In this document: positions 2,776 through 9,640 of the stretch, piece after piece
Numbering within the stretch: position 1 is the stretch's first letter
Layout: every line of letters starts with the position of its first letter
NCBI GenBank assembly: GCA_945876285.1
Contig: CAMCNO010000016.1
Coordinates: forward strand, 1 to 35,492
DNA from: an uncultured Clostridia bacterium
GTDB taxonomy: Bacteria; Bacillota; Clostridia; Oscillospirales; Oscillospiraceae
Reading direction: 5' to 3'
Length of the DNA stretch: 35,492 nt
Made by a program: the position numbers and the translations under genes
The notes under the pieces: generated by a model
Told to the model about the DNA's origin: nothing
Database searches by the model: none
Seen by the model: only the letters and a program-made list of their open reading frames with translations

Positions 2776-2811
2776 ACAACAAATACCTCCTTTATGTATC
2801 CAGGCAGCGCT

Positions 2812-4719
2812 TTAAACTTCGATTTCGATGAACTGGTCCATGGGCTCGCCGCAGTGGGGGCAGACCCAGCCTTCTGGCAGGTCCTTGAAGGCGGTTCCGG
2901 GCTTGACGTCGTTTTCGGGGTCGCCCACCAGCACGTCATACTCATGGCCGCAGCCGTTGCAGATGTACAGCTTCCGGGGCGGCGTGGTCTTCTTGGGCAC
3001 GGCCCGCTTCATCTTCTTCATGGGAGGCGCGGGCAGCTTTTCGCCGGTATCCAGGGCCTTTGCCAGCAGGGGCAGGATCTCCATGACGTCGCCCACGATG
3101 CCGTAGTCACAGTTCTTGAAAATGCGGGCACCGGGGTCGATGTTGATGGCCACGATGGTGGAGGCGTCCTTGATGCCCTTGAGGTGCTGTCCGGCGCCGG
3201 AGATGCCGCAGGCGATGTACAGGTTGCCCTTGAATTTCTGACCGGACATGCCGACGTAGCGGTTCAGCGGCACATACTGCAGCGTTTCGGCCACGGGGCG
3301 GCTGGAGCCGATGGCGGCGCCGGCGGCCTTGGCCAGATCCTCGATGAGCTTCATGTTCTTCTTCTCGCCGATGCCCTTGCCGGCGCTGACCACCCGCTCC
3401 GCCTGGGCGATGGGGGTGTCCATGGGGATGCCCACGGTGAAGTCGTAGCCGTCCTTTTTCAGGGCAGCCACCAGGGTGTCCACCTTCTCCTGGGCGGTGC
3501 CGTCCTTCAGGATCATCTTTTTGCGCTCGCCGGTCTCGGCACCCCGCTTCTGGACGGGAGCAGCCTCGGCCTTGCCCGCCTTGCCCAGAATGTGGGAGGC
3601 GATGACGACCCGCTGAATTTCGTTGGTGCCCTCGTAGATGGTGGTGATCTTGGCGTCGCGGTAGAACCGCTCCACCTCCATGCCTTTCAGGTAGCCGCTG
3701 CCGCCGAAAATTTGCAGGGCGTCGTTGGTGACCTCCAGCGCGATGTCGGAGGCGTACATCTTCGCCATGGCGGACTCCATGCCGTAGGGCACATGGGCCT
3801 GCTTCAACTCGGCGGCGGAGTACACCAGCATCCGGGCGCAGCGGAGCTTGGTGGCCATGTCGGCGATCTTGAAGGCGATGGACTGCTGCTGGCAGATGGG
3901 CCGTCCGAACTGGACGCGGTCCTTGGAATATTCCACAGCCGCCTCAAAAGCGCCCTGAGCGATGCCCAGCGCCTGGGCCGCGATGCCGATACGGCCGCCG
4001 TCCAGGGTGCTCATGGCGATCTTGAAGCCCTGGCCCTCCTTGCCCAGCAGATTCTCCTTGGGAATTTTGACATTGTTGAAGTTCAGCTGGCAGGTAGCGG
4101 AGGAGCGGATGCCCATTTTGTCGTAGTGGGGCTCAAAGGTGAAGCCCTCCCAGCCCTTTTCCACAATGAAAGCGGAGATGCCACGGGTGCCGATGTCCGG
4201 CGTGGTGACGGCAAAGACCACATAGGTGTCCGCCTCGCCGCCGTTGGTGATGAAAATTTTCTCGCCGTTGAGCAGCCAGTGGTCGCCCTTGTCCTCGGCG
4301 ATGGTCTCGGTGCCGCCGGCGTCGGAGCCTGCGTTGGGCTCGGTCAGGCCGAAGGCGCCCACCTTTTTGCCGGAGCACAGGTCGGGCAGGTATTTCATCT
4401 TCTGCTCCTCGGTGCCGAAGGCGTAGATGGGGTAGGTGCCCAGAGACGTGTGGGCGGAGAGAATGACGCCGGTGCCGCCGTCCACCCGACTCAGCTCCTC
4501 CACGGCGATGGCGTAGCTGAGGGCGTCCAGTCCGGCGCCGCCGTATTTGGTCTCATAGGGGATACCCATAAGGCCCAGCTCGCCCATTTTCGTTACGGCC
4601 TCCCTGGGGAAGCGGTTTTCCTGGTCCAGCATGAAAGCAATGGGCTTGACCTCTGCTTCCGCGAAGGCGCGGACCTTTTGGCGCAGAGCCTCGTGGGCTT
4701 CCGTGGTCTGATAGAACAT
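2812..4719 (-). CDS. Acyl-CoA dehydrogenase / ETF-alpha FAD domain / rubredoxin fusion
   Basis: The 635-residue protein joins three redox modules. Residues 1-378 form a complete short-chain (butyryl-type) acyl-CoA dehydrogenase with [11 protein letters not shown] at 123-133, ITNGG at 157-161 and catalytic Glu363 in [11 protein letters not shown] charged linker (379-402) leads to residues about 405-555, which match the C-terminal FAD-binding domain of ETF alpha (SAGKGIG, GSSR at 471-474, [19 protein letters not shown]). A Pro/Lys linker (556-582) leads to a rubredoxin domain with C587-x2-C590 and C620-x2-C623. A normal dehydrogenase has about 380 residues. The N-terminal ETF-alpha domain and any ETF beta are absent, so the beta-FAD of bifurcating ETFs is missing. 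The start at 4719 follows AGGAGG; the upstream in-frame extension overlaps the promoter. Electrons probably pass from acyl-CoA through both flavins to rubredoxin and then FprA. Confidence 0.92.
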
Positions 4720-4788
4720 AAAATACCTTCCTCCTTTTTCGTATGATTCGTATCCCCGGACATGGAAATACGACTGGCTTCTGTTCAT

Positions 4789-4817
4789 ATTATACAAAGT
4801 GCGTTTCAATATCTAAA
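4789..4817 (-). promoter_or_regulatory. Promoter of the dehydrogenase-fprA operon
   Basis: On the minus strand, -35 TTTAGA (4812-4817), a 17-base spacer and a perfect -10 TATAAT (4789-4794) lie about 70 bases upstream of the start codon, in a locally AT-rich gap. Confidence 0.6.
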
Positions 4818-4829
4818 TTGCATTTGCAA
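4818..4829. repeat. Inverted repeat abutting the -35 of the dehydrogenase operon
   Basis: TTGCA-TT-TGCAA is a perfect palindrome with five-base arms, directly upstream of the -35 hexamer. Its position suits an activator or repressor site. The TTG...CAA ends resemble half-sites of the Crp/Fnr superfamily, but that link is only a guess. Confidence 0.35.
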
Positions 4830-4852
4830 CATTTTACAAATTTCTGTCGGAT

Positions 4853-7800
4853 TCATTCCAGCAGGTCTCGCATCCGCAGGAGCATTTTCAGGTCATCCTC
4901 CAGGCACGCCGATGCCGACATGCTGGCATCGTACCGCAATGCCGCGCCCTTTTCCGGCGCAAGGGGCAGGATGACCGCCTCGCTGAGCCGGGAGAGGGTC
5001 AGGTTTCGGGCGTACCGTTCCCGGTAGGCATTCTCAAGAGCCAGCAGGATGTTACGGCTATTCTCAATGCAGGTGCGGGAGAACCGGAACACCGACTCCC
5101 GGCCGCACTCCTTGTAGAACCGGGGGAAGGCGTAGGGCAGGATGAGGTTCACCGCCGGGGCGAGACCGGGGATGGAGGACACTGCCCCGCCCACCGTATC
5201 GCCGCCGATGAAGGGATACATGGTGGACTCCACATACCAGGCCCGCAGGTTGGGCACGAAGTACACGCTGTCCACCTCCCGGCCCTTGGCGGCCATCAGG
5301 TCACGGCCACGGCCGGACAGCAATCCCACCAGCACCCGGTCGATGTCCAGACCCTCCCGCCGGAACAGGGGGTCCAGCACGTTCAGGCGGTTGCCGGAGT
5401 GGAGCAGATCGTCCACCAGCACCACCGGACGGCGGAAAGACCGCACGGTGCGGATCTGGCTCTCCAGCGGCGCGTAGCCGGGATAGGCGGCGATGGTGAA
5501 GGACCGCAGGTCCGGGGCGAACACTTTGTCGGTGTGGATGGTCTTTGTCACGGTGTTGGGCACGGCGTTGCCCCGGAGGATCTTGCCGAAGGGCACGCAC
5601 ATCTTGGGGCCCAGCACCCGGGGCGTCGTCGGCTCGGCGGGAACGCCGTTCAGGTCCGTCAGCTTCCGCACCAGGCGGTGGTAGATGAGCTCCGCGTTCA
5701 GAGACAAAACCAGCGTTCCCGGATACATGGCGCAGATGGCCCGCTGAAGCCGCAAATGGGCCTCCCGGACGGCGGCGAGGACCTGGCGGTCAGAGGAGAA
5801 AGGCTCCTTCAGCGTGGTGGCGATGTTTTGCAGCAACACGGCAGGGGAACGCATATCCACCAGCAGCAGGGGATAGGGCGCGTCGCCGTCCACGGGGACA
5901 AAGCCCTGGCGGGCAAGCAGGTCCAACGTCTCCGGCGCTGTGCTGCCGCCCCACCAGACGGCGTAGCCGCAGTCCTCCGCCATGGCTCGGGACAGCACTT
6001 CCGTCAAAAGAAGCTGGCCCACATCGTAGTTCCCGCCGGGGGCCCGGACGGTATACAGTCCCGTCAGCAGGCGGATGCGGCCCGCCGTCCGCTCCCGGAT
6101 GGCGTTTGCCAGCTCTCCGCTGCCGAGGGCGTCATACAGCCCGCCGGAGTTGATGGTCCGCAGAGTCAAAAAGCCCAGCACCCGGCGGTCGGCGCCGGTG
6201 TGACGCAGAATGCACACCTCGTCCCTGGAGTCCGGCTTGGAGGGGCAGGCGTCCTTTACCGCCTCCCGCAGCGTCTGCCACAGGGCCTGCTCCGGCTGCT
6301 CCACGGTCTCGAAGTCCAGCATACCGGCACGGACCAGGTGCTTGTACTGCGGCTCCCGCAGATACAGGCTGTTGCGGAAGATGAAATCCTGTACCGTGGG
6401 GTCGATGAGGTTGGAGATGTCCCGCCCCAGGTCGATGTTTTCACGGATGCGGGTGGAGCTGATGTCCTCCAGATGGGTGGGGAGCTGCAGCTCGATGACT
6501 TTTCCCTGAATGGCGCTGAGGTCCGCATCGATCTCCCGGCCCTCGGCGTCGCTGGAGCGGCGGAAGACGATGTGGTTCAGAGAGTGGACGGAGCCGGGCG
6601 TGGGCGCCGCCTTATAGGACGAGGCGTTTGCCACCACGTCGGAGCCGACAGCCAGGTACAGCTCCCGCCCAGCGAAGACCTCCCGCAGGCGGTCCAGGTC
6701 GGCGGGGGTCGCCAGGTTCACGGGAATGTCGTGGGGGAACAGATACACGTTGAATTCGTCGGCCACGGACATGCTGACGATCTGCCGCCGCACCAGGGAC
6801 GGCTGGGCCTTTTTGGACCAGGAAAATTCGTCCACAGCCAGATAGACCTCAAAGCCCAAGTCCCGGATGGCCAGCACGATGCCCTTGTGGCTGAGGGAGA
6901 AGGGGTCGAAGGTGCCGGGGAAGAACGCCGCCTTTTTCGGCACCCGGAACTGGAAGGGACCGCTTTCGATGCGGTGCCGGACGATGAAGCGGTAGATGTG
7001 GGAGAGGGCCGCGGCGGTATAGAAGAAGGTCAGCTCCTCCTCCGGCTGTTCGTTGATGAGGAAGAGAATTTTCTTTGCCATCAGGGTGAAGAGGTCGGTT
7101 TTTTCCTCATAGCTCAGCACCCCGGAGCCGAACAGCCGCTCGCCGATGACATGAAGCGCTTCCTGCCGCACGGTCTGGTGACAGGAGGCCAGGCCTTTCA
7201 ACAGGAGGCCCGCCATCCGGTCCCGCCGGGCCGTTTGCTTTTTGGCGGATTCCCGGAACCGGCCGTTGTACTCCCCGTAATGCTCCAGCATGGCTCCCAC
7301 GGTGGACAGGGCAGCCGCCACCACGCCGGTGTTGGCGGAGGAGAGCAGCGTCATCATCTGGTCCAGCACCTCGTCCAGCTCCCGGGGGGACAGCCACAGG
7401 GAGAACCGCCCCAGATACTCCGGTATGTACTGGGAAATTTCCGCCTGCCCCGACTCCAGGGCCTTGGAAAGCTCCACGGCGATCTCGTTCCGGCGGTCCG
7501 GCGTCAGCTGGGGGGCGATGGACAGCAGGGCCGCACCCGCCATCCGGCGGACCACCACGTTTTCGCTGACCTTGATGAGGTTGGAAAAGTGGGTGGCGAT
7601 GTGGAGAAGGCTGCCCACCTCCTTCGCCTGGTTCAGTAGGTACTCCACGCCCACGGCCTTCAGCACCCAGGGGGTGGCGGTCTTCAGATTGTCCAGGAAC
7701 ACGCCGCTGACGGCTTCCGCCCGGTCCAGCCGCGCCCAGACGCCGGACACATCCAGCCCAAGCTTTTGGCCCAATTCCGCCTGCAGGAACAGCAGCGGCG

Positions 7801-9640
7801 TGGAATCGCCGCATTCGGCATGTTCCACGGTCTCCCGGACTGCCGCCGCCTCCTCGCTGCCCAAAGCGGGCAGCAGATGGCGCAGCAGCCGCAGGGCCGC
7901 GGCTTTCTGAGGCTCTCCGCCGCGGCACAGCCACCAAACGGCGAACCTTACCAGCACATGGCGGTCCTGGTCCGTCATCCGGGTGGTGGAGATGTTCAGC
8001 ACCGTGTCCAGAAGGGCGAAGGCTGCGTCGTCGTCCACGGCTCCCGGCTCCTGGTAGTGGCGGAACAGCAGCTCCGCGAACCGGGCGGCATTATGCTCGG
8101 AGCAGTTTTCCAACAGGGCATCCGTCACGGTCTTGGCCTGGTAGCGGATCATGCTGGTCTGCCGGGCGGTGAGCCGGTGGTCCGGGTGGATGAGCCGCTC
8201 CAGATAGTCCGCCCACAGCTCAAAGGGCCGCTCCTCCTGGGGACTGGGAGCGGTACCCGCGGGCAGCTCCTTTTTGTAGCCGGAATGGAACCCCGCCAGA
8301 ATGCGCCCGATGAGGGACGCCGCCTGGCGGCGGATGTCGCCGTCGGGCAGGAGCAGCAGCTCATACAGAAACTCCAGGGCCTGCTCCTTTTGACTGGCGC
8401 TCCAGTAGGTGAAATACTCCTCGAAAATGGACACATAGGCCCGGATGCGGGCCGGTTCCTTCTCGCCCCGGGCGGCCTCCAGGATGCCCACGAACAGCCG
8501 CTCATGGCCCAGGCGGTGCATCAGGCGGATGTTGTGGTCCACGGCGTTGTACCGCAGGCCGTAAACCACCTCGTCCGGCCCCGTCAGAGCCGGGGAGGGC
8601 CGCCGTACCGGCGCTTTGCGGGGCTCTTTCAGGGTGGTGTCCACGCCGAAATAGGTCAGGTATTCTTCAAAGTCCCGCAGCTTGGAGTAGACGTATTGGT
8701 AACGCAGCCGCTTGGCGTCGTCCACGTTGTCCAGCTTGTTCAGGATGACGTCAAAGGCCTCTGCCAGGGAGTAGATGCGGGCAATTTCCCGTCCGTCCTC
8801 CCCCCGGGACTGCTTCACCCGGAAGTCGGCATACACCAGCACCAGAGACTCCGAGGACAGGTTTTCGATTTCAAGGTCCCAGACGGAGTGGTTGGCGGCG
8901 ATGCGGCCAATGGCCGTCAGCCCCCGCCAGGAGAACCACTGGTCCGTATAGAAATAGTGGAGGTAGGGCACCCGCTCCCCCGGCTTGCAGCCGAATTTGC
9001 CGATGTCGTGCCCGGCGGCAGCGCCGGACATCAGCCCCAGGTCGATGAGGCCGCCCCCGGTCTTGAAAGCCCGGGCCACGGACATGGAGACGTGATGAAC
9101 GCCCGCAATGTGCTCCAGGGTGCGGAAGGGCGTCACCTCCCGGCCCAGCCGCAGCAGCTCGTAGACGTATTCCTCCCGGAACCGCCGCAGAAACTGGCGG
9201 TATTCCTCCGCCACGCCGCTGTCCGCCAGCTCCTCCTCCGTGCAGAAGGCAAAATCCAGCCACGGGTCAAAGGGGAGGGTCTCCCGCTCCAGATCGAACA
9301 GCTCCCGGAGGAACTGGAGGAAGCACAAAGCGCCGTCCCGCTGGGGGGCGGTGTGAGCCCGGTCGTCCTGGGGAAACAGCAGGGAGGAGGCTACCTGATA
9401 GGCGTAAGGCAGCCAGCCCTCAGTCGGCTCCGGGGCCATGGCGTCCAGCAGCGGGCGAAAGACCGCCAGCGCCTGGGCGCAGGAGAGGCGCTCCTTCAAC
9501 GGCAGCAGGGTAGTCAGCAGCCGGGACCAGTTCGCCGTTTCAAACAGGCGGGCCGCGTCGTTCCGGGTCATCCGCAGCTTGCGCAGAAAAGTATCCTCCT
9601 CAAATGCACGGCTGAATCGGGGATACAGCATGTTTTCCAT
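4853..9640 (-). CDS. 1595-residue HD / helical-repeat / NadD-like / GNAT-like / PRTase-like protein
   Basis: Several regions can be read in this very long protein. An HD-type metal-dependent phosphohydrolase region spans about 170-275 (H182/H183, H211-D212, H251, D272). About 360-890 is helical and resembles HEAT/ARM repeats. About 904-1095 is a nucleotidyltransferase of the NadD class, with FFPGTFDPFSLSHKG at 906-920 (H918 for the H/T-x-G-H motif) and ISSTRIRE at 1060-1067. About 1140-1265 looks like an N-acetyltransferase (GQLLLTEVLSRAM, LLARQGFVPV). About 1395-1460 has a PRPP-loop-like VVLVDDLLHSGNRL. NadD makes nicotinate adenine dinucleotide, but the reaction here is unknown. The protein is cytoplasmic, with no signal or membrane segment. 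The start follows GGAGG, six bases before ATG 9640. The frame is intact with uniform codon use, so it is one real gene. It appears to be transcribed alone. Confidence 0.85.
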   Translation of the reverse strand: MENMLYPRFSRAFEEDTFLRKLRMTRNDAARLFETANWSRLLTTLLPLKERLSCAQALAVFRPLLDAMAPEPTEGWLPYAYQVASSLLFPQDDRAHTAPQRDGALCFLQFLRELFDLERETLPFDPWLDFAFCTEEELADSGVAEEYRQFLRRFREEYVYELLRLGREVTPFRTLEHIAGVHHVSMSVARAFKTGGGLIDLGLMSGAAAGHDIGKFGCKPGERVPYLHYFYTDQWFSWRGLTAIGRIAANHSVWDLEIENLSSESLVLVYADFRVKQSRGEDGREIARIYSLAEAFDVILNKLDNVDDAKRLRYQYVYSKLRDFEEYLTYFGVDTTLKEPRKAPVRRPSPALTGPDEVVYGLRYNAVDHNIRLMHRLGHERLFVGILEAARGEKEPARIRAYVSIFEEYFTYWSASQKEQALEFLYELLLLPDGDIRRQAASLIGRILAGFHSGYKKELPAGTAPSPQEERPFELWADYLERLIHPDHRLTARQTSMIRYQAKTVTDALLENCSEHNAARFAELLFRHYQEPGAVDDDAAFALLDTVLNISTTRMTDQDRHVLVRFAVWWLCRGGEPQKAAALRLLRHLLPALGSEEAAAVRETVEHAECGDSTPLLFLQAELGQKLGLDVSGVWARLDRAEAVSGVFLDNLKTATPWVLKAVGVEYLLNQAKEVGSLLHIATHFSNLIKVSENVVVRRMAGAALLSIAPQLTPDRRNEIAVELSKALESGQAEISQYIPEYLGRFSLWLSPRELDEVLDQMMTLLSSANTGVVAAALSTVGAMLEHYGEYNGRFRESAKKQTARRDRMAGLLLKGLASCHQTVRQEALHVIGERLFGSGVLSYEEKTDLFTLMAKKILFLINEQPEEELTFFYTAAALSHIYRFIVRHRIESGPFQFRVPKKAAFFPGTFDPFSLSHKGIVLAIRDLGFEVYLAVDEFSWSKKAQPSLVRRQIVSMSVADEFNVYLFPHDIPVNLATPADLDRLREVFAGRELYLAVGSDVVANASSYKAAPTPGSVHSLNHIVFRRSSDAEGREIDADLSAIQGKVIELQLPTHLEDISSTRIRENIDLGRDISNLIDPTVQDFIFRNSLYLREPQYKHLVRAGMLDFETVEQPEQALWQTLREAVKDACPSKPDSRDEVCILRHTGADRRVLGFLTLRTINSGGLYDALGSGELANAIRERTAGRIRLLTGLYTVRAPGGNYDVGQLLLTEVLSRAMAEDCGYAVWWGGSTAPETLDLLARQGFVPVDGDAPYPLLLVDMRSPAVLLQNIATTLKEPFSSDRQVLAAVREAHLRLQRAICAMYPGTLVLSLNAELIYHRLVRKLTDLNGVPAEPTTPRVLGPKMCVPFGKILRGNAVPNTVTKTIHTDKVFAPDLRSFTIAAYPGYAPLESQIRTVRSFRRPVVLVDDLLHSGNRLNVLDPLFRREGLDIDRVLVGLLSGRGRDLMAAKGREVDSVYFVPNLRAWYVESTMYPFIGGDTVGGAVSSIPGLAPAVNLILPYAFPRFYKECGRESVFRFSRTCIENSRNILLALENAYRERYARNLTLSRLSEAVILPLAPEKGAALRYDASMSASACLEDDLKMLLRMRDLLE

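Follow-up and report, generated by a model that had tools for sequence, protein, structure and literature searches.

What does an acyl-CoA dehydrogenase do when an ETF-type flavin domain and a rubredoxin are carried on the same chain, and does such a chain work alone? The question is raised by one gene in the window (the whole 35,492-nt stretch of DNA analysed here), the product of which was originally predicted to be a tethered electron shuttle.

Modules, linkers and key residues of the fusion

Pfam profiles recovered all three modules in one chain, in the order (N- to C-terminal) acyl-CoA dehydrogenase (Acyl-CoA_dh_N, E value 4.8e-42; Acyl-CoA_dh_M, E value 1e-26; Acyl-CoA_dh_1, E value 8.7e-52), ETF-alpha FAD domain (ETF_alpha, E value 1.5e-26) and rubredoxin (Rubredoxin, E value 1.3e-16). 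Since all of these matches exceed the gathering scores, they are not attributable to chance, and the domain order of the original prediction is borne out, including the ETF-alpha and rubredoxin modules on which it stood or fell. Reading of the sequence places the ATG of this BCR-like gene at 4719–4717 and its stop codon at 2812–2814 on the minus strand (Table 1). The promoter-like site ahead of it is weak, as one such site was found where 0.7 would be expected by chance.

Table 1. Positions in the window of the fusion gene, its modules, its flavodiiron neighbour and the associated signals
Feature	Position	Strand	Basis
BCR-like gene, 635 aa	2812..4719	minus	Translation and Pfam; start by Shine-Dalgarno-like sequence
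Promoter-like site TTTAGA-17-TATAAT, 5′ of BCR-like gene	4789..4817	minus	10/12 match
Shine-Dalgarno-like sequence AAAGGAGG of BCR-like gene	4730..4737	minus	About 10 nt 5′ of the ATG; sequence reading
Acyl-CoA dehydrogenase module, residues 1–378, presumed catalytic Glu363	3586..4719	minus	Pfam, 5ol2_C match, conservation
Linker 1, residues 379–398	3526..3585	minus	Variable length and sequence; pLDDT
Conserved strand-helix segment preceding the ETF domain, residues 399–436	3412..3525	minus	Identity, predicted structure, hhalign
ETF-alpha FAD-binding domain, residues 437–556	3052..3411	minus	Pfam, matches to solved ETFs
Linker 2, residues 557–584, conserved APPxxKxK stretch	2968..3051	minus	Alignment, pLDDT
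Rubredoxin module, residues 585–635 and stop; Cys587, Cys590, Cys620, Cys623	2812..2967	minus	Pfam, conserved cysteines
Shine-Dalgarno-like sequence of FDP gene	2786..2793	minus	Sequence reading
Flavodiiron protein (FDP), 405 aa	1558..2775	minus	Pfam ODP and Flavodoxin_1; solved FDP relatives

The best solved relative of the dehydrogenase module is the acyl-CoA (butyryl-CoA) dehydrogenase of Clostridioides difficile (5ol2_C, E value 1.5e-139), while the ETF-alpha domain matches 14 distinct solved sequences at E values up to 0.001, every one of them from an ETF or from the ETF part of a bifurcating complex. The one predicted structure (mean pLDDT 69.3, pTM 0.48) superposes on 5ol2_C with a TM score of 0.93 over the target (60 % identity), and its best 50 PDB matches all lie along the dehydrogenase module. 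Given these mediocre scores and the low-confidence stretches within modules, the model serves for module folds only and is too weak for the packing of the modules on each other.

The original description of two flexible linkers fits the first better than the second. Across 81 sequences, linker 1 varies in both length (19–26 residues) and sequence (median identity 35 %), whereas linker 2 is nearly constant in length (28–29 residues), has a median identity of 68 % and retains invariant A564, P565, P566, K569 and K571 in 28 aligned sequences. The steady length and invariant residues of linker 2 suggest that it may dock, beyond simply tethering the rubredoxin. Within the predicted model, pLDDT falls below 50 in the linkers (379–397 and 566–579); it does so inside modules too (e.g. 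125–137, 361–377 and 474–494), and a low value is therefore not in itself the sign of a linker.

Residue conservation was assessed in 81 sequences, those of the window protein and of 80 relatives, and the key residues of all three modules proved to be retained, as predicted. Glu363, which we take to be catalytic, is kept in 81/81 sequences, as are the rubredoxin residues Cys587, Cys590 and Cys620; Cys623 is kept in 80/81, the exception (L007) coming from a contig that stops short of it. These cysteines are presumably the iron ligands. The ETF residues Arg474, Ser492 and His512 are likewise kept in all 81 sequences. They were identified with the flavin-tuning Arg, Ser(Thr) and His described for ETFs in PMC12630350 by their spacing, which is 17 + 20 residues in that account and 18 + 20 here, and alignment with solved ETF-alpha sequences revealed one extra residue between the tuning positions. 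Retention of the tuning residues suggests a flavin that handles electrons singly, as a rubredoxin acceptor needs.

A loss of the flavin-tuning arginine, considered for the G-R-G position, was dropped because the tuning arginine is that of the S-R position (Arg474), present throughout. At the G-R-G position itself (residue 448, window 3376–3378), the 81 sequences carry K (41), Q (26), L (11), M (2) or R (1). BCR proteins thus have K, Q, L or M in 80/81 cases, whereas R occupies this position in the five printed of the 14 solved ETF-alpha alignments, an unexplained difference from solved ETF-alpha.

The probable flavodiiron partner and its linkage to the fusion

The gene that starts 36 bp downstream of the fusion stop codon, on the same strand, encodes an FDP with ODP beta-lactamase and flavodoxin domains, related to the solved FDPs 6etb, 1ycf and 1e5d. 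Its His80, Glu82, Asp84, His85, His148, Asp167 and His232, presumably the diiron ligands, are kept in 74/74 aligned sequences (the window and 73 loci; the other 3 of the 76 FDP loci are ended by the contig). Judging from these residues and its position, the FDP is the likely partner subunit of the fusion and its oxygen-reducing site.

Linkage was counted in the best 80 of 575 confirmed relatives from one scan of sequenced genomes (74–99 % identical), a sample that makes the count lean to close relatives. Of these 80 loci, 76 have an FDP gene directly after the fusion in the same orientation, at a distance of about 16–870 bp (median about 50, measured from tblastn match ends), and the four loci without one (L007, L025, L027 and L073) have 0–431 bp of contig left after the fusion. 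Titles among the best 80 name Oscillospiraceae, Clostridium, Tissierella, Peptostreptococcaceae, Megasphaera, Amedibacillus and Synergistaceae, with the nearest record (99 % identical) pointing to an Oscillibacter-like anaerobe. In an even sample of 61 genomes from the family, 7, among them that of the window, gave an essentially full-length match to the fusion; matches in the other genomes stop before the rubredoxin. A TGA was counted within the matched stretch of one of these 7 (G015).

One related locus (L071) carries two window-type FDP genes flanking the fusion (4544–5734 and 7948–9141; 63 and 68 % identical to the window FDP). The window's genome, which is 85.5 % complete, encodes two other FDPs (55 and 43 % identical to the window FDP), and the window FDP could serve other donors too. 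Just 3′ of the FDP gene, at 1513–1550, is an inverted repeat, strong and rich in G+C, with A and T runs on its flanks; it was seen by eye rather than called by the scan, and may be a terminator. On the other side, 5′ of the BCR-like gene on the minus strand (4853–9640), is a gene for a 1595-residue protein with weak, below-cut-off matches to HEAT-repeat and cytidylyltransferase-like models. By eye, its start resembles an HD domain and its end a phosphoribosyltransferase, and it may be a multi-domain nucleotide enzyme of an unusual kind.

The segment ahead of the ETF domain

A search of the window and the 80 related loci, run without a positive control, gave no EtfB and no first EtfA domain. 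The claim that the ETF-alpha FAD domain stands without ETF beta or a first alpha domain agrees with what the loci contain, with the qualification that residues 399–436 weakly resemble the end of EtfB. This segment has a median identity of 74 % across the 81 sequences and is predicted to form a strand (402–404) and a helix (409–422), with mean pLDDT values of 89 (401–410) and 91 (411–420).

Because ETFs complete their flavin domain with a C-terminal arm supplied by the beta subunit, we compared the segment with EtfB, using a profile built from 23 EtfB sequences drawn from 37 listed places. A single match was reported by hhalign (probability 21 %, P value 0.001), located at the last residues of EtfB and corresponding to residues 251–269 of 271 in the genome's own EtfB. 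After column shuffling, the hhalign score was reached in 3/300 cases and the same EtfB end was hit at any score in 30/300, while 0/300 did both. A phmmer search of the segment against solved structures returned chance matches alone, with no ETF among them (best E value 0.33), and an hmmsearch of the EtfB of this genome with a profile of the segment reached no meaningful score, nor did it single out the C-terminal end. We therefore treat the segment as possibly an EtfB C-terminal arm, a lead and not a result.

If residues 399–436 were indeed an ETF beta arm placed ahead of ETF alpha, a domain that two subunits normally share would have become one portable flavin module within the chain, one also placed on the different dehydrogenase of a rare relative at locus L104, and it would become clear how one chain holds an ETF flavin without ETF beta. 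We hold this reading tentatively, giving it slightly less than an even chance. The L104 protein (5979–7676 of that locus; genome G023, contig 46) has 565 residues and consists of a dehydrogenase, a BCR-type pre-ETF segment and an ETF domain, without rubredoxin; no FDP or rubredoxin match was obtained within the 14 kb fetched around it. Over 161 residues, its ETF part and segment share 63 % identity with BCR; its dehydrogenase, by contrast, is closer to the two stand-alone dehydrogenases compared (67–68 % identity) than to that of BCR (42 %), which looks like module transfer. At least three proteins of this layout, L104 included, are present among the 120 matches listed of 6904, from 5.8 billion proteins.

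Proposed electron route and comparison with known systems

The original prediction knew of no characterised enzyme with this layout. Such an enzyme has been known since 2024, namely the butyryl-CoA oxygen oxidoreductase (BOOR) of Fusobacterium nucleatum (Bystrom and Wolthers 2024, doi 10.1021/acs.biochem.4c00279, as summarised in PMC12288474, PMC12630350 and PMC13404960); the fusion is genuine, but it is not the first of its kind. According to the summary in PMC12288474, the F. nucleatum enzyme is a four-plus-four complex that converts butyryl-CoA to crotonyl-CoA and O2 to H2O, and is described there as being without NO reductase activity. FN1423 is its FDP, and FN1424 is its BCR by deduction from PMC12630350. 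The pair is also reported from butyrogenic gut Firmicutes (PMC12288474, PMC13404960), with homologues described from gut Clostridia (PMC13404960). On the strength of its layout, residues and linkage, we consider it highly probable that the gene pair 4719–1558 encodes a BOOR. The idea of a tethered, non-bifurcating shuttle fits both the domains present and what is reported on the biochemistry of the F. nucleatum enzyme (PMC12288474), but the shuttle would not be stand-alone, as its probable acceptor is the FDP encoded next to it. The window thereby adds a well-supported BOOR pair from an Oscillibacter-like anaerobe and corrects the lone-chain idea.

Electrons from butyryl-CoA very probably travel through the fusion to the neighbouring FDP, in an oxygen-detoxifying system of a type that was described only recently. 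The modules, key residues, FDP partner and conserved linkage are observed here; the cofactors, order of electron transfer, substrate and two-protein complex are proposed because the pair resembles the F. nucleatum enzyme and from what is established for the families. Glu363 would act as the base when the dehydrogenase module transfers a hydride from butyryl-CoA to its FAD, and crotonyl-CoA would be released; electrons would then move to the FAD of the ETF-type domain, from there singly to the rubredoxin iron, and on to the FMN of the neighbouring FDP, the diiron site of which would reduce O2 to water.

An enzyme that oxidises another acyl-CoA (e.g. a longer or branched one) and otherwise works alike would overlap with the BOOR reading in all but substrate. 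No family model fixes the substrate of the fusion, since none among the 25 NCBIfam models listed reaches its cut-off, and the best of these matches is to acryloyl-CoA reductase (481.9 against a cut-off of 640). However, the closest relatives of known structure are dehydrogenases of butyryl-CoA and short-chain acyl-CoA, the Bcd encoded in the same genome shares 60 % identity over 347 residues, and butyryl-CoA is the reported substrate of the F. nucleatum enzyme (PMC12288474); a different substrate therefore seems unlikely. With regard to the acceptor, the fusion might instead be an acyl-CoA:rubredoxin reductase that feeds mainly other rubredoxin-dependent enzymes, rubrerythrin for example, rather than the FDP, and so serves mainly in peroxide removal. 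Clostridial rubrerythrins can be reduced in vitro by way of a rubredoxin system, but the same source reports the F. nucleatum pair as an O2-reducing complex (PMC12288474). Moreover, an FDP adjoins the fusion in 76/76 loci with room to tell, making a rubrerythrin acceptor very improbable.

The first ETF-alpha domain and EtfB together form the second FAD site of an ETF, and the potential of rubredoxin lies far above that of ferredoxin. An electron-bifurcating complex between the fusion and an EtfB from elsewhere in the genome, where etfB is available on contig 60 and in partial form on contig 4, is rejected as having next to no likelihood, given that the first ETF-alpha domain is absent from the fusion, that its acceptor would be the high-potential rubredoxin and that the window and all 80 loci yielded neither EtfB nor a first EtfA domain.

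The etfB of contig 60 belongs to a separate bcd-etfB-etfA cluster, the bcd of which is ended by the contig, and the partial etfB of contig 4 is accompanied by etfA; with this separate cluster and no EtfB in the loci, the fusion need not be a Bcd-EtfAB subunit. RnfC is encoded on contig 10. In the published loop, bifurcating Bcd-Etf and Rnf reuse the crotonyl-CoA of BOOR for energy (PMC12288474), and the genome's bcd-etfB-etfA and RnfC provide main parts of that loop here.

Compared with C. difficile Bcd-EtfAB (5ol2), the dehydrogenase is 60 % identical to 5ol2_C and the ETF-alpha domain is homologous to 5ol2_A, but the fusion is a single chain with an added rubredoxin, and the EtfB and first EtfA domain that stand beside the dehydrogenase in Bcd-EtfAB were found neither in it nor in the window or the 80 loci. 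The BOOR homologues of Roseburia inulinivorans, Eisenbergiella tayi and Faecalibacterium prausnitzii described in PMC13404960 have the same layout and FDP neighbour as the window. In that description they adjoin an Rrf2-type regulator, whereas the single above-cut-off Rrf2 match in the window's genome is on contig 33, with none on the window's contig. F. nucleatum belongs to another organism group, and none of the best 80 of 575 relatives is titled Fusobacterium; orthology to its BOOR is inferred from domain order, residues and gene linkage. Like the F. nucleatum enzyme as summarised in the sources above, the window combines a Bcd module, the C-terminal part only of EtfA and a rubredoxin in identical order in one chain, and has a two-domain FDP alongside. 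The window pair also carries the residues looked for in a BOOR: the Glu, the ETF Arg, Ser(Thr) and His, the rubredoxin cysteines and the presumed FDP diiron ligands.
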